A DNA stretch of 42,082 nt from contig WHTI01000013.1 of assembly GCA_009377815.1 (NCBI GenBank), forward strand, positions 1 to 42,082, given 5' to 3'. The position numbers were made by a program, and so were the translations under genes. The stretch is from Actinomycetota bacterium (GTDB taxonomy: Bacteria > Actinomycetota > CADDZG01 > WHSQ01). The notes beneath the pieces are model-generated. The model was not told the DNA's origin. It saw nothing but the letters and a program-made list of their open reading frames with translations, and made no database searches. Below are positions 1-36,096 of the stretch, piece by piece. Each line of letters opens with the position of its first letter. The first letter of the stretch is position 1.

Positions 1-1
1 G

Positions 2-1183
2 ATAGAACTCGTCGCGCCTGGGGACGACGTCCGGATCGTGCATATCCTCGACGTCGCAGAGCCTCGTGTCCGCATCTCAGATCCCGGGGTGGATTTCCCC
101 GGGATCGTCGGCCCGTTGCACCCCGTCGGGACCGGCGTCACCAATCGCATGGCTGGGGTGGCCATCACCGAGACGATCGAGCCGCTTCCCGGCGAGCCCA
201 CGTACTGGCGTGAGGCGATCCTCGACATGGGAGGATCCGGCGCGCAGTATTCGCCCTTCTCGAGGCTGAGGCACGTCGTCCTTTCCGTTAAGCCGTCGGC
301 GGATCAGTTCTCCAGCGACGAGGGGGACTCTTCGCTGCACAATGTGTTCGAGGGAAGTCCCGAGGTCATGAGATTCAAGAACGAGGTGCGCGCGGCCGGC
401 CTTCGAGCGGCCGTGTACCTGGCAGAAACGACCAAGGATCTCGCACCGGACTGGGTTGATACATATGAGCGTCCGGGGGGCAAGGCTGAAGGCCTGCCCA
501 AGATGGTCTACCTGTACCAGGTGCAGGGGCCCCGTTTCTACGGCGAGGTCCTTCCCAGGGCGGGCGCGATGACCGCGGCTGCGCATCTCCCGCTGTTCGT
601 CAATCCCGCCGAGGTGCTCGATGGGGCGCTGGTTTGCATGTCGTCCCTCGGCGGGTCCAGGCGCGAGGTCACCTATCTCATGCAGAACCATGCGGTGATC
701 AAAGAGATGTACCGAAGGCACGGGGAGGACATCGACTTCCGGGGCCTCCTACTGTGCTCTAACGGGGATGATCGAAGATCCAAGCAGACGATAGCCACCA
801 GCGCCGCCGGCGTTGCCCGGTACCTGGGTGCTGAGGGTGCCGTGCTTAATACCCTGGGCGCGGGTCACCCGGTCGTCGACGTGATGGTTGCGTGCAAGGA
901 GTTCGAAAGGCAAGGCATACATACCGTGCTCCTTCTCATGGAGATGTCGTCGACCCCAGGGGAGTCAGGATTCACGGACTTCGTTCCTGAGGCGAACGCG
1001 ATCGTGAGCAATGGCAACTTCGAGGAGAAGCTGGACCTTCCGGCAGTCTCCAAGGTGATCGGGGGAATCGAGATAATGATGGTCGGTGATCCCGCGGGCG
1101 GACCTCTCAATATCACGCTTGGGCATGTTTTGGGGGCGACGAGTTCGATCGGGATGGGCTCCCTTCGGGGAGCGGATGTGTGA
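2..1183 (+). CDS. Glycine/sarcosine/betaine reductase component B, GrdE/GrdG-like subunit (5' partial)
   Basis: The reading frame is open to the left edge. Upstream of the first GTG (position 38) it encodes IELVAPGDDVRI, which matches the family's conserved VELARPGESVRI segment, so the real start lies outside the window. Other family blocks are IxDMGGSGAQYSPFS, DGALV followed by TYLMQN and YRRHG, GHPVVDVMVACKEFERQG, IVSNGNF and a C-terminal GATSSIGMGSL. In Stickland clostridia GrdE is a proprotein cleaved at a cysteine to give a pyruvoyl group; with the selenoprotein GrdB/F it binds glycine, betaine or sarcosine for reductive cleavage. A cysteine (codon 635-637) sits in the segment where I recall the cleavage site, but the surroundings differ. 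The selenoprotein partner is probably just upstream. Family assignment is good; substrate is unknown. Confidence 0.82.
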   Translation: MELVAPGDDVRIVHILDVAEPRVRISDPGVDFPGIVGPLHPVGTGVTNRMAGVAITETIEPLPGEPTYWREAILDMGGSGAQYSPFSRLRHVVLSVKPSADQFSSDEGDSSLHNVFEGSPEVMRFKNEVRAAGLRAAVYLAETTKDLAPDWVDTYERPGGKAEGLPKMVYLYQVQGPRFYGEVLPRAGAMTAAAHLPLFVNPAEVLDGALVCMSSLGGSRREVTYLMQNHAVIKEMYRRHGEDIDFRGLLLCSNGDDRRSKQTIATSAAGVARYLGAEGAVLNTLGAGHPVVDVMVACKEFERQGIHTVLLLMEMSSTPGESGFTDFVPEANAIVSNGNFEEKLDLPAVSKVIGGIEIMMVGDPAGGPLNITLGHVLGATSSIGMGSLRGADV

Positions 1184-4593: not shown

Positions 4594-4606
4594 GGATATA
4601 TTATAG
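4594..4606. promoter_or_regulatory. Putative operator site a (NNATA-N3-TATAG dyad)
   Basis: GGATA-TAT-TATAG in an otherwise GC-rich 111-bp gap, 50-62 nt upstream of Mo-hydroxylase copy A. It matches eight other intergenic copies in the catabolic block. Its position is consistent with an operator overlapping the promoter -10 region. Confidence 0.55.
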
Positions 4607-4654
4607 GTTGCGCCAACGGCTCGGGCCTTTTCGATCGTGACGCTCGCTCCCCGG

Positions 4655-7275: not shown

Positions 7276-7288
7276 ATATAGATTAGAC
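7276..7288. promoter_or_regulatory. Putative operator site c, upstream of RidA-GntR
   Basis: ATATA-GAT-TAGAC, 65 nt before the RidA start. TTGTGA at 7256-7261 and TAGATT at 7279-7284, 17 nt apart, make a plausible sigma-70-type promoter that the dyad overlaps. If GntR binds here it regulates itself. Confidence 0.5.
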
Positions 7289-7353: not shown

Positions 7354-7770
7354 TTGGGGGGAGTGGAGCGAAGGAATTTCAATCCCAAGGGCCTCGCACC
7401 TCCGTTGGGCCCCTATGTCCATGCCGTACGTGTCTCGGGCGGAGACATGGTGTTCGTTTCGGGTTGTATCTCGACCGACGAGAACGGGCGGATCGTCGGA
7501 CCCGGGGACGTCGCCGCCCAGACCAGGCGCACGATGGAGAACCTTCGAGCTTGCCTGGCCGAGGCGGGAGCCGAAATGTCCGACGTCGTTAAGATCACGA
7601 ATTTCGTGTTGGACGCGCGCGACTATCCACAGATCGCGCCGGTAAGGGCAGAGTTCCTTACCGAACCCTTCCCGGCAAGCTCGATGGTCGAGGTGAAAGG
7701 GTTTATGTTTCCCGGATTGTTGATCGAGACCGAAGCCATAGCTGTGATCGGGGCGGGAGCGGGGGGATGA
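7354..7770 (+). CDS. RidA/YjgF/Rid-family protein
   Basis: A 138-residue Rid-family protein with the barrel-fold blocks GPYVHAVRV, GDMVFVSGCIS, QTRRTMENLRACLAEAG, VVKITNFVLD and IETEAIAV. The TTG start follows AGGGGGAGG by 4 nt; a GTG at 7363 is the alternative. RidA enzymes hydrolyse 2-aminoacrylate-type imines using an Arg in the PARS-C-V-E-V segment. Here that segment reads PASSMVEV, so the Arg is Ser (residue 110 from the TTG). This suggests a Rid subclass without classical imine deaminase activity. It overlaps the GntR gene by 4 bp (ATGA) and is therefore translationally coupled to it. Confidence 0.88.
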   Translation: MGGVERRNFNPKGLAPPLGPYVHAVRVSGGDMVFVSGCISTDENGRIVGPGDVAAQTRRTMENLRACLAEAGAEMSDVVKITNFVLDARDYPQIAPVRAEFLTEPFPASSMVEVKGFMFPGLLIETEAIAVIGAGAGG

Positions 7771-8444
7771 TGGCGGAAACCAGTGAGCATGGAGGGCCCC
7801 CAACCAGGGCCGATTGGGCCGAACAGATCCTCAGAGCCGACATACTCGCCGGGCGACTGAAACCCGGCGAGCGGATCAAGATCGGCGAACTGGTCGAGCG
7901 CTATCAGGGACTGAGCCCCACGCCATTGAGGGAGGCGCTGAGTCGCCTCGCCGGCAGCGGACTCGTTGAGTTTGTACCGCAAAGGGGAGTCCGTGTCGCA
8001 CAAGGCTCGAAGGCGGACCTTCTTGACGTGTACGAGATTCGGATCATGCTCGAAATGACTGCCCTCAAGCGATCGCTTCAGAAGGCCGACGAGGGATATG
8101 TCGCAGATGTGAAGAAGGCGATGGAGGACTTACGAGCGCTTTCCAATGTGGATGGAGACCCAGCCAGGATGGTTGCCTGGGAAGAAGCCCATCGGCGGTT
8201 CCATTCGGTCTTGTTGGAGCGGTGCGGTTCACCGTGGCTCTTGAAACTCACCACTCAGCTGTTCGAACACTCGACTCGCTATCGCAACCAATCTCTCGGA
8301 GTACGGGGGACGGAGGCAGACATCCTCCGCGAGCATTTGAACATCGCAGAGGCTGCGATCGCGGGGGATCGCAAGAAGGCGGTTGCCGCCCTTACCGACC
8401 ACCTGCGCTTGACGGTTGATGCTCTGGTCGAATCCCTGGAGTGA
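7767..8444 (+). CDS. GntR-family transcriptional regulator, FCD subfamily
   Basis: A 225-residue regulator with an N-terminal winged helix (about residues 12-75, with LKPGERI, LSPTPLREALSRLAGSGLVEF and RGVRVA) and a C-terminal FCD effector domain. Likely metal or ligand residues are EEAHRRFH, REHLNIAEA and the final TDHL. FCD regulators usually respond to small carboxylates and repress catabolic genes. It lies in the middle of the catabolic block, is coupled to RidA and follows operator site c. It is the only transcription factor in the window, so it is the obvious candidate to bind the nine dyads; direct binding is not shown. Confidence 0.93.
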   Translation: MMAETSEHGGPPTRADWAEQILRADILAGRLKPGERIKIGELVERYQGLSPTPLREALSRLAGSGLVEFVPQRGVRVAQGSKADLLDVYEIRIMLEMTALKRSLQKADEGYVADVKKAMEDLRALSNVDGDPARMVAWEEAHRRFHSVLLERCGSPWLLKLTTQLFEHSTRYRNQSLGVRGTEADILREHLNIAEAAIAGDRKKAVAALTDHLRLTVDALVESLE

Positions 8445-8964: not shown

Positions 8965-8977
8965 ATATAAATTATCA
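8965..8977. promoter_or_regulatory. Putative operator site d, between divergent small and large Mo subunits
   Basis: ATATA-AAT-TATCA lies 25 nt from the small-subunit start and 20 nt from the large-subunit copy B start. One site could control both divergent units. Confidence 0.5.
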
Positions 8978-8997: not shown

Positions 8998-11235
8998 TTG
9001 ACCACGATCGGCCTGCCCGTTGCTCGACTCGAGGATGAAGCCATCGTCCGAGGGCTTGCGATGTACACGGGGGATGCCGTCGAACCGGAACTGCTGGAAG
9101 TTGCTTTTGCCCGCAGTTGGGCCGCACATGCGTTGATCAAAGAGGTGGATGTCGCGACCGCTCGCTCCATCCCCGGGGTAGTGGGGGTGTGGTCGGCCAT
9201 GGATGCTCCTTTCCCCCCGACCCCGCCCACCCCGCCGAACGTTCCCCCGGAAGGGGTCGAATGGCCGACCCTGGCGCGGGACAAGGTGAGGTACTTCGGG
9301 GAACCGCTCGCGATCGTTGCAGCAACAGACCGCTATGTTGCGGAGGATGCGGTAGGGCTGATCGATCTGGATCTTGAGCCCTTGCCGTCCTCTCACGATC
9401 CAACTGAAGCTGCTGCTTCCGATGCGGGCCAGCTGTTCGACAATGGCTCGAACGTGATGCTCGAGGGTCGATTCGGGGAGGACATCGAGGATGCTTTCGA
9501 GCGGGCCGATGTGGTCCTCGAGGGGAGATTCCGGCATCCTCGTCTCGCGCACATGGCCCTGGAGGGCCGCTCCTTCCTCGCTATCCCCAGGGCCGATGGA
9601 TTGGAGGTCTTCTGCTCCCACCAGGCCCCACACCGGCTACGGATGAGTCTTGCGTTGGCCCTACAGATGCCCCAGGAGAAGTTGCGGGTCCGGGTTCCTC
9701 ATGTGGGAGGGGCGTTCGGAGGGAAGAGCCAGGTGTACCCGGAGTATGTAGCCATCGCCTTCCTGTCTCTTCAACTGGGACGACCGCTGCGGTGGGTGGA
9801 AGACAGAACAGAGAGCTTCGTTGCCTCCGCTCACGGTCGTGGCCAGAACCAGGTGATCCGGCTAGCCGCGGAACGAAGCGGAAGAATCGTTGCCCTCGAC
9901 GTGCATATCGACGGGGATGTCGGAGCGTATCCACACACGGGCGCACTGGTACCCCCTATCACCGCCCTGATGATGCCTGGGCCCTATCGGATCCCCAGGC
10001 TGTCGGTACGGTTCCGCTCCGTCCTGACTAATGCCGTGCCGACAGCTCCCTATAGGGGCGCCGGCCGGCCCGAAGCGACCCTTGCACTTGAGGTGATGAT
10101 CGATCGGCTTGCGTCTGAGATCGGTGCAGACCCAGCAGAGGTTCGCGCGTTGAACTTCATCGCTCCTTCGGAGTTCCCATACGAGACCGGAACCGGTGAG
10201 GTTTATGACAGCGGCGACTATCCGACCGCACTCAAGTTGGCCCTTGATGTCTCTGGCTATAGAGAATCGACGGTCGAACCACATGGGCACGAGATGTCGG
10301 GCTTCGGGATCGCTAGTTTTGTCGAGCGCGCCGGGGGACAGAGCAACTCGAGTGAGTTTGGAAGCGTGGAGGTCACGCCCGAAGGAAGGATCGTCGCTCG
10401 GTCAGGTGCAATGTCAACGGGACAGGGGCACGCCACCACCTTCGCTCAGATCGTCGGGTCGGTTTTCGATGTCAGTTTGGATCGCGTCGATGTCATCCAA
10501 GGTGACACGGATGAGGTCTTAGAGGGGGTCGGCACCTTTGCTAGTCGATCGGTGCAACTCGGAGGATCTGCGTTGCTCGTCGCCTCACAAGAGGTGTTGG
10601 ATCTCGCGTGTGACCGAGCCGCGACCTCGTTGGAGGTCCACCGTGCCGATCTTGAATATTCCGAAGGTCGATTCTCCGTTGTGGGGGCCTCCTCGCGCGT
10701 TGTCAGCATCTTCGAGCTAGCTGCGGAAAGCGACCTCCAGGTAGGCGAAGTCTTTGCCGCAAAGCTCACCTACCCCTATGGGACCTACGTCGCTTCTGTG
10801 ATTGTGGATCGAGACACGGGGGTGACGGAACTCCGAGGCATCACGGCGGCCGACGATTGTGGCACCATCGTCAACCCGCTTCTCGTTGAAGGTCAAACGG
10901 TGGGATCGGTAGCGCAGGGGCTCGGATCGGTGCTCTTGGAGAGGGTTGTCTACGATGATGCGGGACAACCTCTGGCAGCTTCGATGATGGATTACTTAGC
11001 GCCAACCCTCAGCGAGATCCCCACGATCCGACCGGCGACCATGGTTACGCCAAGTCCCAATAACCCTCTGGGCGCCAAAGGCGCAGGAGAAGCCGGGTGT
11101 ATCGGAACGCCGGCTGCAGTCGCGAACGCGGTGTTGGGGATCCTTCGGCGACATGGATGCACCATGGTCGATGTTGACCTGCCTTTCACTCCCGAGCGAG
11201 TCTGGAGGGCCCTGAGGGATGGGCAGGATTCGTGA
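8998..11235 (+). CDS. Molybdenum hydroxylase large subunit, copy B
   Basis: A 745-residue Mo-pterin-binding subunit, the most divergent of the four copies. It has VGGAFGGKSQVYPEY (copies A, C and D have FGVRGExYPED), the active-site loop PYRGAGRPEA, STGQGHATTFAQI, and C-terminal LGAKGAGEAG with the catalytic Glu. The loop is the form II type seen in heterocycle and aldehyde hydroxylases, not in CO dehydrogenase. The TTG start is preceded by GGAGGAG at short spacing. It pairs most naturally with the divergent 2Fe-2S gene. It overlaps the downstream amidase gene by 4 bp (GTGA), so ring hydroxylation and amide hydrolysis are in one operon. Confidence 0.92.
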   Translation: MTTIGLPVARLEDEAIVRGLAMYTGDAVEPELLEVAFARSWAAHALIKEVDVATARSIPGVVGVWSAMDAPFPPTPPTPPNVPPEGVEWPTLARDKVRYFGEPLAIVAATDRYVAEDAVGLIDLDLEPLPSSHDPTEAAASDAGQLFDNGSNVMLEGRFGEDIEDAFERADVVLEGRFRHPRLAHMALEGRSFLAIPRADGLEVFCSHQAPHRLRMSLALALQMPQEKLRVRVPHVGGAFGGKSQVYPEYVAIAFLSLQLGRPLRWVEDRTESFVASAHGRGQNQVIRLAAERSGRIVALDVHIDGDVGAYPHTGALVPPITALMMPGPYRIPRLSVRFRSVLTNAVPTAPYRGAGRPEATLALEVMIDRLASEIGADPAEVRALNFIAPSEFPYETGTGEVYDSGDYPTALKLALDVSGYRESTVEPHGHEMSGFGIASFVERAGGQSNSSEFGSVEVTPEGRIVARSGAMSTGQGHATTFAQIVGSVFDVSLDRVDVIQGDTDEVLEGVGTFASRSVQLGGSALLVASQEVLDLACDRAATSLEVHRADLEYSEGRFSVVGASSRVVSIFELAAESDLQVGEVFAAKLTYPYGTYVASVIVDRDTGVTELRGITAADDCGTIVNPLLVEGQTVGSVAQGLGSVLLERVVYDDAGQPLAASMMDYLAPTLSEIPTIRPATMVTPSPNNPLGAKGAGEAGCIGTPAAVANAVLGILRRHGCTMVDVDLPFTPERVWRALRDGQDS

Positions 11236-17148: not shown

Positions 17149-17161
17149 CTATATTCTATAG
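17149..17161. promoter_or_regulatory. Putative operator site e, before Mo subunit copy C and the ThDP gene
   Basis: CTATA-TTC-TATAG, a perfect 5-bp-arm dyad, in the 55-bp gap between copies C and D. Read on the minus strand, TAGAAT ends 10 nt from the ATG, as expected of a -10 element of a leaderless transcript. Confidence 0.58.
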
Positions 17162-19533: not shown

Positions 19534-19546
19534 ATATAACGTATAT
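19534..19546. promoter_or_regulatory. Putative operator site f, before Mo subunit copy D
   Basis: ATATA-ACG-TATAT. With one more base each side the arms GATATA/TATATC (19533-19547) are perfectly palindromic, the best dyad of the set. It lies 9 nt from the ATG of copy D. Confidence 0.6.
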
Positions 19547-19595: not shown

Positions 19596-19608
19596 CCATA
19601 GAATATAG
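19596..19608. promoter_or_regulatory. Putative operator site g, before the ABC importer
   Basis: CCATA-GAA-TATAG. On the minus strand it shares CTATATTCTAT with site e. It sits 50 bp from site f in the divergent promoter region between Mo subunit copy D and the importer operon. Confidence 0.52.
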
Positions 19609-19695
19609 ATTCCAGCGAAGGGGAGCAGAGACATCTTACCGGGGGGTGGGTTTTCGGAGATGGATGGCGCGACCGGAGCGGCGCAAAGGACAGAC

Positions 19696-24486: not shown

Positions 24487-24499
24487 ATATAGACTATAG
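24487..24499. promoter_or_regulatory. Putative operator site h, before hyuAB
   Basis: ATATA-GAC-TATAG within an AT-rich run in a GC-rich gap, 73 nt upstream of the hydantoinase A start. A possible -35 (TTGTCG, 24466-24471) lies 18 nt before TAGACT, so the dyad overlaps the likely -10. Confidence 0.58.
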
Positions 24500-28544: not shown

Positions 28545-29405
28545 GTGACGCGTCCCAAGGTGATCATTACATGTGCGCTCACTGGCGGAGTTCACGGGAA
28601 AGACGCCAATCCGAATCTTCCGGAGCAACCTGATGAGATCATCGAACAAGGAATTGCGGCGTGGAGGGCCGGGGCGGCGGTTCTTCACTGTCATGCACGG
28701 GATCCTAAAGGCGAGCCGACCACCGATCCTGCGATCTTCTCACGCATATATAAAGGCTTACTCGCGGAGACGGATGCCATTATCAACCTCACAACAGGTG
28801 GCGGACTTGGTCTTTCTATAGAGGAACGCATTAGATCGACCGAATTGGTTCCCGAGATTTGCACGCTCAATATGGGGTTGCTTGATTTCATACTCCGAGG
28901 AGAGGAGTTCTTCTTCTCGAATCATCGGTCGGAGATCACGTGGTTCGTTAAGACGATGCGAGAGAAGGGGATTAAACCCGAGCTCGAGTGCTACAACATC
29001 GCGATGATCGAAGAGTCCATAAGACTGATCGACAGTGGGTTGGTAGATCCTCCGTACTTGTTCAACCTGGTTCTGAACACACCCACACTGGGCGGGTTGA
29101 GCGGCACGCCTCTGAATGTCTTCGACATGGTTAAGCGATTGCCCGAGAACTCCGTCGTGAGCGTTTCGAGCATGGGAAACACGCAGCTCCCGATCACAAC
29201 GATCGGGATGGCCATGGGCCTACATGTACGAGTTGGGTTGGAGGACAACGTCCACTACGCAGCGAAGGAGCTTGCTGTGAGCAACGCTCAACTTGTGGAA
29301 CGAGCAGTGAGATTGGCCAAGGAGCTGCAGCTCGATCCAGCAACGCCGGACGAGACACGTGACTTCGTGGGTCTACCTCGGGACTCAGAGCGCCGTCTGT
29401 TTTAA
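28545..29405 (+). CDS. Beta-keto acid cleavage enzyme (BKACE, DUF849/Kce-like)
   Basis: A 286-residue TIM-barrel zinc enzyme. The family condenses a beta-keto acid with acetyl-CoA to give acetoacetate and a new CoA ester (3-keto-5-aminohexanoate cleavage being the model). Visible zinc ligands are His48 and His50 (VLHCHARDPKG) and Glu233 (VGLEDNVHY). The entry motif ANPNLPEQPDEI and the end VSNAQLVERAVRLAKEL are typical. The GTG start is preceded by GGTGAGG. It is the last gene of the hyuAB unit, suggesting it processes the carbon skeleton released by ring opening. The specific beta-keto acid is unknown. Confidence 0.9.
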   Translation: MTRPKVIITCALTGGVHGKDANPNLPEQPDEIIEQGIAAWRAGAAVLHCHARDPKGEPTTDPAIFSRIYKGLLAETDAIINLTTGGGLGLSIEERIRSTELVPEICTLNMGLLDFILRGEEFFFSNHRSEITWFVKTMREKGIKPELECYNIAMIEESIRLIDSGLVDPPYLFNLVLNTPTLGGLSGTPLNVFDMVKRLPENSVVSVSSMGNTQLPITTIGMAMGLHVRVGLEDNVHYAAKELAVSNAQLVERAVRLAKELQLDPATPDETRDFVGLPRDSERRLF

Positions 29406-29414
29406 AATGTCATA

Positions 29415-29441
29415 GTGGCCAACAATTCAGGTCCTGGCCAC
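29415..29441 (+). terminator. Weak hairpin terminator after BKACE gene
   Basis: GTGGCCA pairs with TGGCCAC around a 13-nt loop, 10 nt after the BKACE stop. There is no T-tract, so termination would be inefficient or Rho-dependent. Confidence 0.4.
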
Positions 29442-29715
29442 GCTAGTCCGCAAGCTCCGACACTTGTCGCGCGTTCGCATGGGACTGCCCAGGTTTGGTT
29501 GACTCCTGATCTGTGAGGATGGCCTCACGCAGACGGGCAGTCGATGCAGCGCAACCGGTTGCTCGAGGAGGGAAACGAGGTCCTTCCCGGCGGCGATCTA
29601 CCTCGGACAGGGGGTCAAGACAAAATGCTGTACCCGTGACCTTGCCGCTGACGGGACCCCGTCGTGGTGACCTGCCCAAGAATCATTCGTTTGACTTTTG
29701 TTTCGGTTGCGTTTT

Positions 29716-29728
29716 ATATACACTATAT
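29716..29728. promoter_or_regulatory. Putative operator site i, upstream of the structured region and tRNA-Sec
   Basis: ATATA-CAC-TATAT, flanked by TTGCG (29707-29711) and CGCAA (29732-29736). TTGACT at 29691-29696 is 18 nt before TATATA, giving a good sigma-70-type promoter reading right. No protein gene follows; tRNA-Sec begins 281 nt later. Confidence 0.55.
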
Positions 29729-29812
29729 GTACGCAAGTATGTCTCCTTATCTCAAGGTTGGTGGTGCGTCGCCCGGGACCCGACCCCAAGTCGTTCTCCC
29801 CCAGGGTTCTGC

Positions 29813-29965
29813 TCCGAGGTCGCCACGGTAGTTCCTCGATCCCCCAGAGGCGCATGAGCATCATGCGATCTAACCGTGGCGACCTCGGACGGCGGCGCTC
29901 CGCCTCGTCAGCGCCGGAAGTTAGGGTAAAGAAGTTCCAGAAGTGAGGAGAGTTGCTCTTTCTGG
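29813..29965 (+). ncRNA. Putative structured RNA or leader upstream of tRNA-Sec
   Basis: A perfect 17-bp stem (29813-29829 with 29873-29889) encloses a 43-nt loop that itself contains a 7-bp hairpin (29851-29857 with 29861-29867, loop GCA). It is followed by a 7-bp stem (29893-29899 with 29910-29916) and a 6-bp stem (29937-29942 with 29960-29965). It does not match the signal recognition particle, 6S, tmRNA or RNase P RNAs as I know them. It may be a processing element on a tRNA-Sec precursor, a small RNA, or the remnant of a palindromic mobile repeat. Confidence 0.4.
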
Positions 29966-30009
29966 GCGAGTGAGGGACCTTGTGCATGAAAGAAGGTCTC
30001 CGATCCAAG

Positions 30010-30101
30010 GGAGGCGAAAGGGGACTGGTGTCCCTCCCGGTCTTCAAAACCGGTGCGCCGGGCGATCCCCGGTGGGCGGGTTCGATTCCCGTCCGCTTCC
30101 G
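30010..30101 (+). tRNA. selC: tRNA-Sec (anticodon TCA)
   Basis: 92 nt with all bacterial tRNA-Sec features. The acceptor stem is 8 positions (GGAGGCGA with CCGCTTCC; one G-T and a terminal A-C mismatch). The D stem is 6 bp with a TGGT loop. The anticodon stem CCGGT/ACCGG carries loop CTTCAAA with TCA at 30044-30046. A long variable arm has CCGGG/CCCGG, the T arm is GCGGG-TTCGATT-CCCGT, and the discriminator is G at 30101. CCA is not encoded. It reads UGA as selenocysteine. It is convergent with selD one base away and downstream of operator site i. Confidence 0.95.
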
Positions 30102-30102
30102 C

Positions 30103-31140
30103 TCATTCAGGGATCACCCTGATACGTCCTTGGCCCTTTAACAGGCGCCCGATCACGGCACCGTCGATTCCCCGCTTCGTGAGCGCAGCCATCAGGCTGC
30201 TGGTTTTGGTTTGGTCGACTGCCATAAGGAGGCCCCCAGAGGTCTGCGCGTCGTAGAGCACCGCCATCTCATGCTGCGCGGTTCCACCTTCATCAACCAC
30301 TGGCGCTGTCGCCTCACGGTTTCTGACACTGCCTCCAGGCATCACGCCATGGTCGGCCAGATCCAAAGCCCCGGCCAGCACAGGAACGCCTTTGAAGTGC
30401 ACCTCTGCGTCCAGACGTCCATCCAACATCTGCACGAGGTGGCCGAGAAGACCGAACCCGGTTACATCTGTTGCAGCCTCCACACCGGTTTCCTTCATCG
30501 CCTCGGCCGCAGACTGATTGAGAGTCCCCATGACGGCTATCGCTTGCTCGACGAGTTCTGCAGGGGGTGATCCGTGTTTGATGCTATGCGTGATGATGCC
30601 CATCCCTAGCGGCTTCGTGAGCACAAGATCGTTTCCAGCGAAACCAGAAGTCTTGGTGAGGTACTCCTTGGGGTGGACCGTGCCGGTTACAGCTAGGCCA
30701 AACTTCGGTTCCGGGTCGTCGACGGAATGTCCCCCAATCACGGGAACCCCTGCTTCAATGCACGCGTCCTGACCCCCCTCGATGACCCTACCAAGAAGGG
30801 TGAATTCTAGATCGCGAGGCCATGCCACCAGATTGAGAGCAGTGATTGGGGTGCCGCCCATCGCGTAAACGTCAGATAAAGCGTTGACTGCGGCGATACG
30901 TCCCCACGAGTAGGGGTCATCCACGATCGGCGTGAAGAAGTCGACGGTCTGCACGAGCGCGACATCCTTCGTAACCTGGAACACACCGGCATCATCGGGG
31001 GCATCCAGTCCCACAAGAACCCGGTTGTCGTGATTCGTTGTGGGGAGGTATCGCAAGATCTCCGCCAGTTCAGCTATGCCCAGCTTGCAGGCGCAGCCGC
31101 CTCCGTGCGAAAAGGCCGTGAGTCTCACGCTGTCCAACAA
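30103..31140 (-). CDS. selD: Selenide, water dikinase (selenophosphate synthetase)
   Basis: A 345-residue enzyme that makes selenophosphate from selenide and ATP, needed for Sec-tRNA and for other selenium modifications. The N-terminal glycine-rich site reads FSHGGGCACK with Cys16 and Lys19, corresponding to E. coli Cys17 and Lys20; the Cys is not replaced by Sec here. AIRS-type blocks follow: VQTVDFFTPIVDDP, AVNALSDVYAMGG, VIGGHSVDDPEPKFGLAVTGTVHP and GFGLLGHLVQML. A TTG start at 31140 follows GGAGAGGAG. It is convergent with tRNA-Sec. selA and selB are not nearby. Confidence 0.95.
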   Translation of the reverse strand: MLDSVRLTAFSHGGGCACKLGIAELAEILRYLPTTNHDNRVLVGLDAPDDAGVFQVTKDVALVQTVDFFTPIVDDPYSWGRIAAVNALSDVYAMGGTPITALNLVAWPRDLEFTLLGRVIEGGQDACIEAGVPVIGGHSVDDPEPKFGLAVTGTVHPKEYLTKTSGFAGNDLVLTKPLGMGIITHSIKHGSPPAELVEQAIAVMGTLNQSAAEAMKETGVEAATDVTGFGLLGHLVQMLDGRLDAEVHFKGVPVLAGALDLADHGVMPGGSVRNREATAPVVDEGGTAQHEMAVLYDAQTSGGLLMAVDQTKTSSLMAALTKRGIDGAVIGRLLKGQGRIRVIPE

Positions 31141-33696: not shown

Positions 33697-33738
33697 CGGC
33701 CTCCGCCCGGCACGTCGTCCATAGAGGAAGATGTGCCG

Positions 33739-36096
33739 ATGCCCGATATCCCTTCCGTTCTCACGTCCGCGCCCCCCACGCTCCAGCCGGAGACCGCTGC
33801 CGATCTGGCGAGCCGGGTCTTCGGCATCGCGGGGACCTTGAGTCCTCTGGGGAGCGAGCGCGATCAGAACTTCATGGTCGAGGACGGTTCCGGTGATCGC
33901 TACCTCCTGAAGCTGTCCAACGCCGCCGAGGACGAGTCCGGCGTGACCTACGAGACCGATGCTCTGCTCCACATCCTGCGGACCGACCCCGGCCTGCCGG
34001 TAATGGAACCGGTGACAACGACTAACGGAACGTATTGGGCCAGCGTCGATACGCCGAGCGGGACAGGACATCTGATCAGGATGTTCACGTTCCTCGAGGG
34101 GACCCCGGCCGCCGCTCCCGACCTCGACCTCGAGGCGATCGCGGCGTTCGGGGCAACGCTGGCGCGGCTCGGTCGGTCGCTGCGCGGCTTCTTCCATCCC
34201 GCGGCCGGGCGGAAGCTGTTGTGGGACGAGAGGCATGCGAGCGACCTCCGGCCTCTGCTCGAACACATCACCGACGACGCCCAAGCGGCGCTCACAGGTG
34301 CCGCGCTGGACCGTTTCGATGCACGGGTCCTGCCGGTGGTGGGCTCGTTGCGAGCCCAGACTATCCACAACGACTTCTCGCTCGATAACACCTTGATGGG
34401 GCCCGATCGACGGGTCAGCGGCATCCTCGATTTCGGGGACCTGACCCACACCGCGTTGGTGTGTGATCTGTCGACGGCGATGTCCTCGGTCATGTTCGGG
34501 CGAGACGACCCTGGTGAGGCCGGTGAGGCGGTCGTCGCCGGCTATGCCTCGATCACCCCGGTCGAGGAACTCGAGCTGAGCCTCCTCCCGGACCTCCTCG
34601 CGGCGCGGCTCGTCGCTCTTATCGCGATCGCGGCCTGGAGAGTGAGATCTTTCCCCGAGAACCGCGAGTACATCATGGGCTCGGTCGCCGAGGCACACTC
34701 GCTGCTCGCCTGGCTCGACGGGGGAGGGTATGCGGACCTCGAGGATCGCCTCGGTGCCGGCTCGAGCGCGGCCCCGACCGCCGTTTCTACGGAGGAGTTG
34801 CGGGAGCGCCGTCGGGTGCTCGGCTCGGCGATGTCACCGCTGTCTTACCAGCGGCCTCTCCACCTAGTCCGAGGCGACGGACCGTGGCTGTACGACACCG
34901 ATGGTGTGAGATACCTCGACGCCTACAACAACGTCCCTGTCGTCGGCCACTGCCACCCTCTCGTATCCGATGCGATAGCGAGGCAGTCGCGCGCGCTGAA
35001 CACGAACCTCCGGTACCTGCATGAGAACTCGATCGAGCTGGCGGAACGTTTGTGCGGGACGCTTCCGGACGGACTGGATGTCTGCATGTTCGTCAATTCC
35101 GGAAGCGAGGCCAACGATCTCGCGTGGCAACTGGCGCGAGCGGTGACCGGACGTGCAGGTGGGATCGTGACCGAGTACGCGTATCACGGGATCACTACCG
35201 CGGTGTCGGATCTGTCGCCCGAACACTGGGCCCGCGGCTACACGCCCGATACGGTCGCGACGATCCCGGCCCCCGATGGTCACGCCGGGGTCCACCGCCG
35301 CGAGGATCCGAACTGGGCTGCAGCCTACGCGGCTCACCTGGACGATGCCGTGGAGCATCTCCGCGCCGGCGGACTCGAGCCGGCGGCGCTGTTCCTCGAC
35401 TCGGGCTTCACGAGTGACGGGATCCTCGTGCCGCCGGCCGAGTACGGGAGGGACGTGGTCGATCGGATCCACGCCACCGGCGGGCTGTTCGTTGCCGACG
35501 AGGTACAGACGGGATTCGGACGCCTCGGGGCTCACCTCTGGGGTTTCGAGCGCTTCGGAGTGACCCCGGACATCGTCACGCTCGGCAAGCCGATGGGTAA
35601 CGGCCACCCCGTGGCCGCGGTGCTGACCACGAGCGCGATCGTCGACCGCTTCGCCCAGACGATGGACTTCTTCAGCACCTTCGGAGGCAACCCGGTCGCC
35701 TGCGCCGCCGGACTAGCGGTGCTGGATGTGATCGAGAGCGAGGGCATCCAGGAGCGCGTGATGGGTACCGGCAACGCACTGATCGACGGGCTCCGAGTGC
35801 TCGCCGAGCGACACTCCTCGATCGGCGAGGTTCGGGGGCTGGGGCTGCTGATCGGGGTCGCCTTCACCTCGGATGACACTGGCCGCCCATCCGATGCCGC
35901 TCTCGCCGGTCGCGTGATGAACGGGATGCGCGAGCGGGGGATCCTGATCGGGACCACCGGGCCCGATGACAACGTCCTCAAGATCCGTCCGCCCCTCGTG
36001 ATCACCGAGGAACACGTCGACCTCCTGCTCACGACCCTCGATGAGGTCCTCCGGATATGCAACGAGCCCGGGGGTGAGACCCCGGGCTCGTCGTGA
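33739..36096 (+). CDS. Fusion of an APH-type small-molecule kinase and a class III aminotransferase
   Basis: About 785 residues. The N-terminal half is a choline/hydroxylysine-kinase-like phosphotransferase with the catalytic motif HNDFSLDNTL (His210, Asp212) and metal-binding ILDFGD. The C-terminal half (from about residue 355) is a PLP class III aminotransferase with VNSGSEANDLAWQLA, LFVADEVQTGFGRLG and the PLP Lys617 in LGKPMGNGHPVAAV. Similar two-domain proteins relate to hydroxylysine kinase and phosphohydroxylysine or phosphoethanolamine phospho-lyase, so phosphorylation followed by elimination is likely. ATG 33739 is chosen because GAGGAAG lies 8 nt upstream. Confidence 0.9.
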   Translation: MPDIPSVLTSAPPTLQPETAADLASRVFGIAGTLSPLGSERDQNFMVEDGSGDRYLLKLSNAAEDESGVTYETDALLHILRTDPGLPVMEPVTTTNGTYWASVDTPSGTGHLIRMFTFLEGTPAAAPDLDLEAIAAFGATLARLGRSLRGFFHPAAGRKLLWDERHASDLRPLLEHITDDAQAALTGAALDRFDARVLPVVGSLRAQTIHNDFSLDNTLMGPDRRVSGILDFGDLTHTALVCDLSTAMSSVMFGRDDPGEAGEAVVAGYASITPVEELELSLLPDLLAARLVALIAIAAWRVRSFPENREYIMGSVAEAHSLLAWLDGGGYADLEDRLGAGSSAAPTAVSTEELRERRRVLGSAMSPLSYQRPLHLVRGDGPWLYDTDGVRYLDAYNNVPVVGHCHPLVSDAIARQSRALNTNLRYLHENSIELAERLCGTLPDGLDVCMFVNSGSEANDLAWQLARAVTGRAGGIVTEYAYHGITTAVSDLSPEHWARGYTPDTVATIPAPDGHAGVHRREDPNWAAAYAAHLDDAVEHLRAGGLEPAALFLDSGFTSDGILVPPAEYGRDVVDRIHATGGLFVADEVQTGFGRLGAHLWGFERFGVTPDIVTLGKPMGNGHPVAAVLTTSAIVDRFAQTMDFFSTFGGNPVACAAGLAVLDVIESEGIQERVMGTGNALIDGLRVLAERHSSIGEVRGLGLLIGVAFTSDDTGRPSDAALAGRVMNGMRERGILIGTTGPDDNVLKIRPPLVITEEHVDLLLTTLDEVLRICNEPGGETPGSS
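36063..36090. terminator. Hairpin terminator at the end of the fusion gene
   Basis: CGAGCCCGGGG pairs with CCCCGGGCTCG (11 bp) around a 6-nt loop, inside the last codons of the fusion gene and facing the convergent serine protease gene. The GGGTTTTCTC that follows supplies a poor T-tract. It probably acts in both directions. Confidence 0.6.

Follow-up and report, generated by a model that had tools for sequence, protein, structure and literature searches.

The window analysed here is the whole of contig C52, 42,082 nucleotides in length, from a 3.6-Mb Actinomycetota genome that is split into 485 contigs. Judged by this fragmentation and by its quality figures, the assembly is a metagenome bin, with an estimated completeness of 96.6% and contamination of 2.57%. 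The window contains a large catabolic gene set, which begins with part of a Grd-type reductase and includes the hyuA-hyuB-BKACE operon. Behind this operon and on the same strand are a promoter-like sequence, a perfect TATA palindrome termed site i, a long inverted repeat, and a tRNA-Sec gene, here called selC2. A selenide,water dikinase gene, selD2, follows on the opposite strand. The features are listed in Table 1.

Table 1. Features of the window, with the catabolic genes, operator-like sites and selenocysteine genes in order of position
Feature	Position	Strand	Basis or remark
GrdG/E-type reductase subunit, C-terminal part	38..1183	+	NF040793, 155 bits; frame begins on C121 behind grdB
Operator-like site ATATATTATAGGT	4596..4608		Before molybdopterin dehydrogenase ORF on - strand
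Operator-like site ATATAGATTAGAC	7276..7288		Upstream of GntR gene; 11.7-bit promoter-like sequence, -10 centred on site
GntR/FCD-family regulator, CsiR-like, candidate reader of sites	7767..8444	+	PF00392, 54 bits; PF07729, 84 bits
Operator-like site ATATAAATTATCA	8965..8977		Before molybdopterin dehydrogenase ORF at 8998
Operator-like site CTATATTCTATAG	17149..17161		5 nt before molybdopterin dehydrogenase ORF on - strand
Second perfect palindrome	19534..19546		Between divergent dehydrogenase and ABC-transporter genes
Site with 2 mismatches	19598..19610		-10 of 12.1-bit promoter-like sequence 2 nt from site centre
Sister site ATATAGACTATAG	24487..24499		Precedes hyuA-hyuB-BKACE, next operon upstream of site i; promoter-like sequence scores 10.4, with its -10 centred on site
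BKACE (beta-keto acid cleavage enzyme), final gene of operon preceding site i	28545..29405	+	PF05853, 302 bits
Promoter-like TTGACT (29691-29696), 18-nt spacer, TATATA (29715-29720)	29691..29720	+	Direct reading
Site i, perfect ATATA-CAC-TATAT palindrome, ATATACACTATAT	29716..29728		Putative operator
Predicted 5' leader of selC2 precursor, about 283 nt	29727..30009	+	Predicted start about 29727
Perfect 17-bp inverted repeat, 43-nt structured loop (77 nt overall)	29813..29889	+	Arms 29813-29829 and 29873-29889
selC2, tRNA-Sec (UCA), no encoded CCA	30010..30100	+	Rfam; 30010-30102 by ARAGORN (TCA anticodon)
selD2, selenide,water dikinase, Cys form, tail-to-tail with selC2	30103..31140	-	TIGR00476, 373 bits

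The TTGACT/TATATA pair has the highest sigma70-type score, 12.3 bits, in the 604 nt from 29406 to 30009 (P = 0.019 against a Markov null), the scores being those of our own generic matrix, which is not specific to this phylum. A stricter consensus scan misses this promoter because TATATA lacks the final T. The left half of site i is part of the -10 hexamer, as can be read directly from the sequence. Site i ends at 29728, and 281 nt later a tRNA-Sec gene begins in the same direction as the promoter; ARAGORN and Rfam RF01852 both place its start at 30010. Neither of the two open reading frames that overlap the gap matches a Pfam family, and a hidden protein gene between 29728 and 30010 was rejected on this basis. 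The initial annotation had described a good promoter overlapped by site i, with no protein gene after it and tRNA-Sec as the next gene, 281 nt on, and in these respects it is upheld, the promoter coordinates being exact.

selC2 scores 77.4 bits against RF01852 (gathering score 47) and has a UCA anticodon and complete stems. It is 95% identical to the other selC of this genome, selC1 on contig C28, and 98% identical to the selC of two relatives (G002 and G009). Pairs that are flagged as non-standard are in the same columns as in selC1, and no stems are newly broken. C-to-T changes in selC2 were considered as a sign of decay, and this was dropped because those in the long arm are shared with the selC of G009. 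SelD2 is likewise intact, with no stops. It is 67% identical to SelD1, encoded on C129, and in a phylogenetic tree it is sister, with high support, to SelD1 together with the SelD of a genome of the same genus, G001. As a copy, selD2 thus appears to derive from the same genus or one close to it, and a distant import was rejected. selC2 and selD2 meet tail-to-tail, almost without intervening sequence, and therefore a transcript that continues past selC2 would be antisense to selD2, which has no site of its own. On the right flank of the selC2-selD2 region, a gene that encodes a fused phosphotransferase (APH) and class-III aminotransferase (33733-36096) is conserved in the family.

Secondary structure modelling of the segment between site i and the tRNA (29729-30009) gives -121.3 kcal/mol, with z = -3.7 relative to shuffled sequences. 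The main source of this structure is the inverted repeat, since nucleotides 29810-29892 alone fold with -49 kcal/mol (z = -6.7). The exact 17-bp arms are found nowhere else in the genome, and the hairpin was thus rejected as a dispersed repeat. It might serve as a transcription stop, might protect the precursor, or might be a scar. One alternative is that transcription from the site-i promoter yields a structured small RNA with its 3' end at the 29813-29889 hairpin, or that the hairpin is an attenuator, such that the tRNA is reached only under some condition. The strength of the hairpin, and its position in the sole stretch between promoter and tRNA, are in keeping with this; however, no T run is found behind it and the leader matches no Rfam family, and such a role is very unlikely.

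Comparison with relatives provides information on where selC genes normally start. In 28 of 34 selC loci of relatives, a TAnnnT -10 motif is found 5-15 nt before the tRNA (nearly always 5-12 nt), compared with 6% for equally wide stretches further upstream. In most cases, therefore, transcription of these selC genes begins very close to the mature 5' end. There is no proximal TAnnnT before selC2, the closest likeness being GATCCA, and the best sigma70-type score between 29740 and 30009 is 5.2 bits, which is below the null median. A separate promoter close to 30010, the main alternative named in the initial annotation, was thus looked for and is not seen. With no proximal -10 and such low scores, the most plausible source of selC2 transcripts is site i or, alternatively, the hyuAB-BKACE operon by read-through, other sigma factors being possible. 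It should be pointed out that selC1 also has no proximal TAnnnT (it has GATAATAT about 83 nt upstream), and that the motif is absent in 6 of the 34 loci. Its absence before selC2 is therefore, by itself, no proof of dependence on site i.

Read-through would make selC2 the last gene of a hyuA-hyuB-BKACE transcript that starts at 24487, with site i adding to it. Regulation would be the same and the mechanism different. The genes are on the same strand, the stretch 29405-30010 has no gene, and the sister site at 24487 and site i have TTTTATATA[G/C]ACTATA in common. Nevertheless, the transcript could be terminated by a hairpin that follows immediately on the BKACE stop codon (29415-29441; -12.5 kcal/mol, with z = -1.5), and a full promoter match stands between BKACE and selC2. 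We consider read-through as the main source of selC2 transcripts to be improbable.

Site i is one of a clustered set. The motif ATATAN3TATAT with up to two mismatches occurs 10 times in the window as against 0.95 expected, a number reached in 0 of 100 shuffles. There are only two perfect copies in the 3.6-Mb genome, at 19534 and 29716, and both are in the window. If one mismatch is allowed, the genome has seven places, all of which are on C52, C121 and C207; together these contigs amount to 108 kb, which is 3% of the genome. With two mismatches, 50 places are counted across the genome and 49 in a backward control, and thus such matches outside the window mean little alone. The 18 nt around site i, CGTTTTATATACACTATA, are found unchanged at C207:17134, before a 2-hydroxyacid dehydrogenase gene, and C207 bears three sites in all. 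In sequence and position, site i fits a TATA-N3-TATA regulon: it resembles the set more than expected by chance, lies over a promoter-like sequence and stands upstream of its putative target. Four sites (7276, 19598, 24487 and 29716) each have a promoter-like sequence that scores 10.4-12.3 bits and whose -10 is no more than 4 nt from the site centre. This arrangement is, on sequence grounds, the layout of repressor sites.

The likeliest reader of the sites is the protein encoded at 7767-8444, in which the GntR DNA-binding and FCD domains both score above the cut-off. Catabolic repressors of the GntR/FCD type (CsiR-like) similarly have a short A+T-rich palindrome over the promoter and a regulator gene inside the cluster; the present case differs in that binding is putative and that a tRNA gene would be a target. 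To our knowledge, a tRNA gene is an unusual target for such a repressor. A second GntR/FCD gene is present on contig C479 (locus L052, 4701-5608), behind two TATA-N3-TATA-like sites (CTATATCCTATAC and ATATATCCTACAC). It may control a paralogous regulon whose operator is almost identical, and would then compete for the role of reader.

The Grd-type reductase that was noted among the catabolic genes is real, and its gene is at the left edge of the window. The first 66 bases of the window overlap exactly with the end of contig C121, and the reading frame joins across the two contigs to give 458 amino acids. C121 carries grdC (NF040746, 550 bits), trxA, grdA, an oligopeptide-type ABC transporter and grdB. 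GrdA (NF040748, PF04723) has an in-frame UGA in the sequence CFVU, and GrdB (PF07355) has one at codon 379 of a 468-codon frame. Simple folding of the sequences behind the UGA codons, in search of SECIS hairpins, shows a hairpin behind that of grdA with z = -1.05, and nothing notable behind that of grdB (z = +0.79). The Grd operon in this actinobacterial bin spans C121 726-10442 (locus L050) and window positions 1-1183, and has the ABC transporter genes between grdA and grdB.

The site at C121:372 has one mismatch. It precedes grdC by about 350 nt, and a better promoter-like sequence follows it. The centre of the site is TCC, as in the C479 set and unlike that of site i. Control of both grd and selC2 by one protein would therefore be plausible at most.

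The rest of the selenocysteine machinery is distributed over several contigs. selC1 is intact and has a sigma-factor gene as its neighbour, an arrangement seen in five other genomes of the family, and the only selA of the genome is on the same contig, C28. Behind selA, the ancestral selB is reduced to a frameshifted remnant (C28 1-480, locus L051) that consists of the first ~21 codons (MFVIGTVGHVDHGKSSLIEAL) and the last 65 residues in different frames, with the middle missing; G001 keeps selA and selB in order. The only intact selB is on C207, which is a site-bearing contig. A second apparent selB match, with two TAG codons, on C329 was rejected, as it is the EF-Tu gene of the str operon. Thus a full second set of Sec-decoding genes is not present in the genome, which has one selA (C28) and one intact selB (C207). 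The selD1 contig, C129, is collinear with G001. Within the family, only this genome has two selC genes and only this genome has GrdB. G001, a 92%-complete bin, has selD, selA and selB but no tRNA-Sec match; its selC has either been lost or is missing from the bin.

The initial annotation proposed that selenocysteine supply is co-regulated with catabolism. The site, the promoter and the UGA codons of GrdA and GrdB speak for this, but selC2 is not the sole tRNA-Sec gene. With selC1 present on C28, the proposal can at most hold for the accessory copy, which is paired with selD2, and not for selenocysteine supply as a whole.

A doubled set of Sec genes is also what a mixed bin would show. If C52, C121 and C207 came from a co-occurring relative with a single selC, there would be no duplication, and the estimated contamination of 2.57% is about the size of these three contigs. 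Against this, positions 33.7-40.7 kb of the window align collinearly with a G001 contig (77% identity), and the bin has no second copy of the stretch, although one would then be expected from a 96.6%-complete host genome. Contamination as the origin of C52 is accordingly judged less likely, and we give the mixed-bin explanation only a slight chance.

Perhaps site i is a real but orphan operator-promoter whose original gene is gone, and selC2-selD2 came to be placed behind it, to be transcribed from a promoter for another sigma factor or hardly at all. The long gap and the odd, unique 77-nt inverted repeat within it fit this explanation, as does the finding that the arrangement is not conserved. 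No TATA-N2-6-TATA sequence occurs within 400 nt of selC in any of the 34 loci of relatives, and the expectation that the same site would be found upstream of selC in relatives thus fails; nor was a second selC inside such a catabolic gene set found among the relatives examined. In addition, the presence of an intact selC1 may make selC2 dispensable, and selC1 also does without a proximal TAnnnT. However, the tRNA and SelD2 are both free of stops and newly broken stems, and no other promoter-like sequence above 5.5 bits exists between the site-i cluster and the tRNA. On balance, an orphan site is unlikely, though it deserves to be kept in mind.

The interpretation that we favour, with a probability of roughly one half, is that selC2 and selD2 are an accessory pair at one edge of a substrate-inducible catabolic island, and that selC2 is made as a long precursor; the control is read from the anatomy of the locus. 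Transcription would start from TTGACT/TATATA (29691-29720), and the precursor would carry ~283 nt of leader. The palindrome over the -10 would be occupied by a GntR/FCD-type repressor, most probably the 7767-8444 product or a paralogue, until a substrate or intermediate of the pathway releases it. RNase P would then trim the leader. Release of the operator and trimming of the precursor together would cause the selC2 tRNA, and possibly selenophosphate from SelD2, to rise as GrdA and GrdB, with one UGA each, are made. The basal selenocysteine supply would come from the conserved selC1 and selD1.

Several observations do not sit easily with an inducible selC2. No relative's selC has such a site, 283 nt is long for a tRNA leader, and the -49 kcal/mol hairpin could halt transcription before the tRNA is reached. 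selD2 has no site, and run-on transcripts from selC2 would be antisense to it. The grd site at C121:372, given its TCC centre, may answer to another GntR paralogue, e.g. that of C479. Lastly, the conserved selC1 is without a proximal TAnnnT as well.

A broader and more tentative idea, which we regard as possible but doubtful, is that supply is split into a basal part (selC1, selD1 and selA) and a substrate-induced part (selC2, selD2 and perhaps the only working selB), the latter under the same repressor as the catabolic genes that bear the selenoenzyme. If this is the case, the capacity to read UGA as selenocysteine would rise with one pathway, which amounts to substrate control of genetic-code capacity.

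As a rule, tRNA-Sec genes are regarded as a constant background. If selC2 is induced together with the Grd genes, the tRNA for a recoded codon would be an inducible part of a catabolic pathway. The system would also make it possible to test directly whether selenoprotein output is limited by tRNA-Sec or instead by selenium or SelB, and might help to explain why two selC genes are kept in some genomes. The glycine-reducing Eubacterium (Peptoclostridium) acidaminophilum has paired selD genes; it too is an organism with two selD genes and a Grd selenoenzyme. We know of no operator-controlled second selC in that species.

Other unusual arrangements of selenocysteine genes have been described. The classical clustering of Sec genes with a selenoprotein gene is that of selABC next to fdhA (PMC1794560). 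The present locus resembles it in that genes for Sec supply travel with a selenoenzyme, but here grd and selC2-selD2 are ~38 kb apart in one gene set with no selA, and what connects them is an operator of the same type, not a single operon. Genes for selC that are nested in or overlap selB have been proposed to be a homeostatic device (PMC8124441). There too the tRNA-Sec supply is tied to other genes through transcript arrangement; the tie is to selB, whereas here it would be to a catabolic regulon through a promoter site.

Two intact, non-identical selC genes with compensating changes were found in eight bacterial genomes in the Secmarker survey, together with four Clostridiales in which selC copies are adjacent, and Photobacterium profundum 3TCK, which has two complete operons (PMC5330540). 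The multiple genes were judged likely to be functional, their meaning being called unclear for the genomes with the most copies. The genome described here is similar in having two intact, non-identical selC genes. It differs in that the extra copies of the survey adjoin other sel genes, with no catabolic operator reported in the passages considered, whereas selC2 is behind such a site and has selD2 alone beside it.

Among 5.39 million open-access papers, four came up on selC transcription, expression or promoters, and in their titles and abstracts no substrate control was found. For a catabolic operator on a selC promoter, and for paired selD genes, nothing directly comparable was found in the open-access literature, although absence there is no proof. 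Extra selC copies are thus already known, and a catabolic operator on selC appears to be new.

Other genomes of the class and phylum also have two full tRNA-Sec genes, i.e. G017 (C101 and C108), G016 (C30 and C55) and G046 (C96). Neither selD nor a TATA palindrome is found in the surroundings of these paired genes. The terminal ~60 bases of tRNA-Sec recur at a distance of some 2-4.5 kb from a complete gene, or occur by themselves, in several relatives; examples are L169 (G009:C137, 3044-3104), L170 (G010:C269, near 2650-2720) and short selC matches in G012, G014, G016 and G021. In sequence, these partial repeats resemble the attachment-site scars left by elements that integrate in selC.
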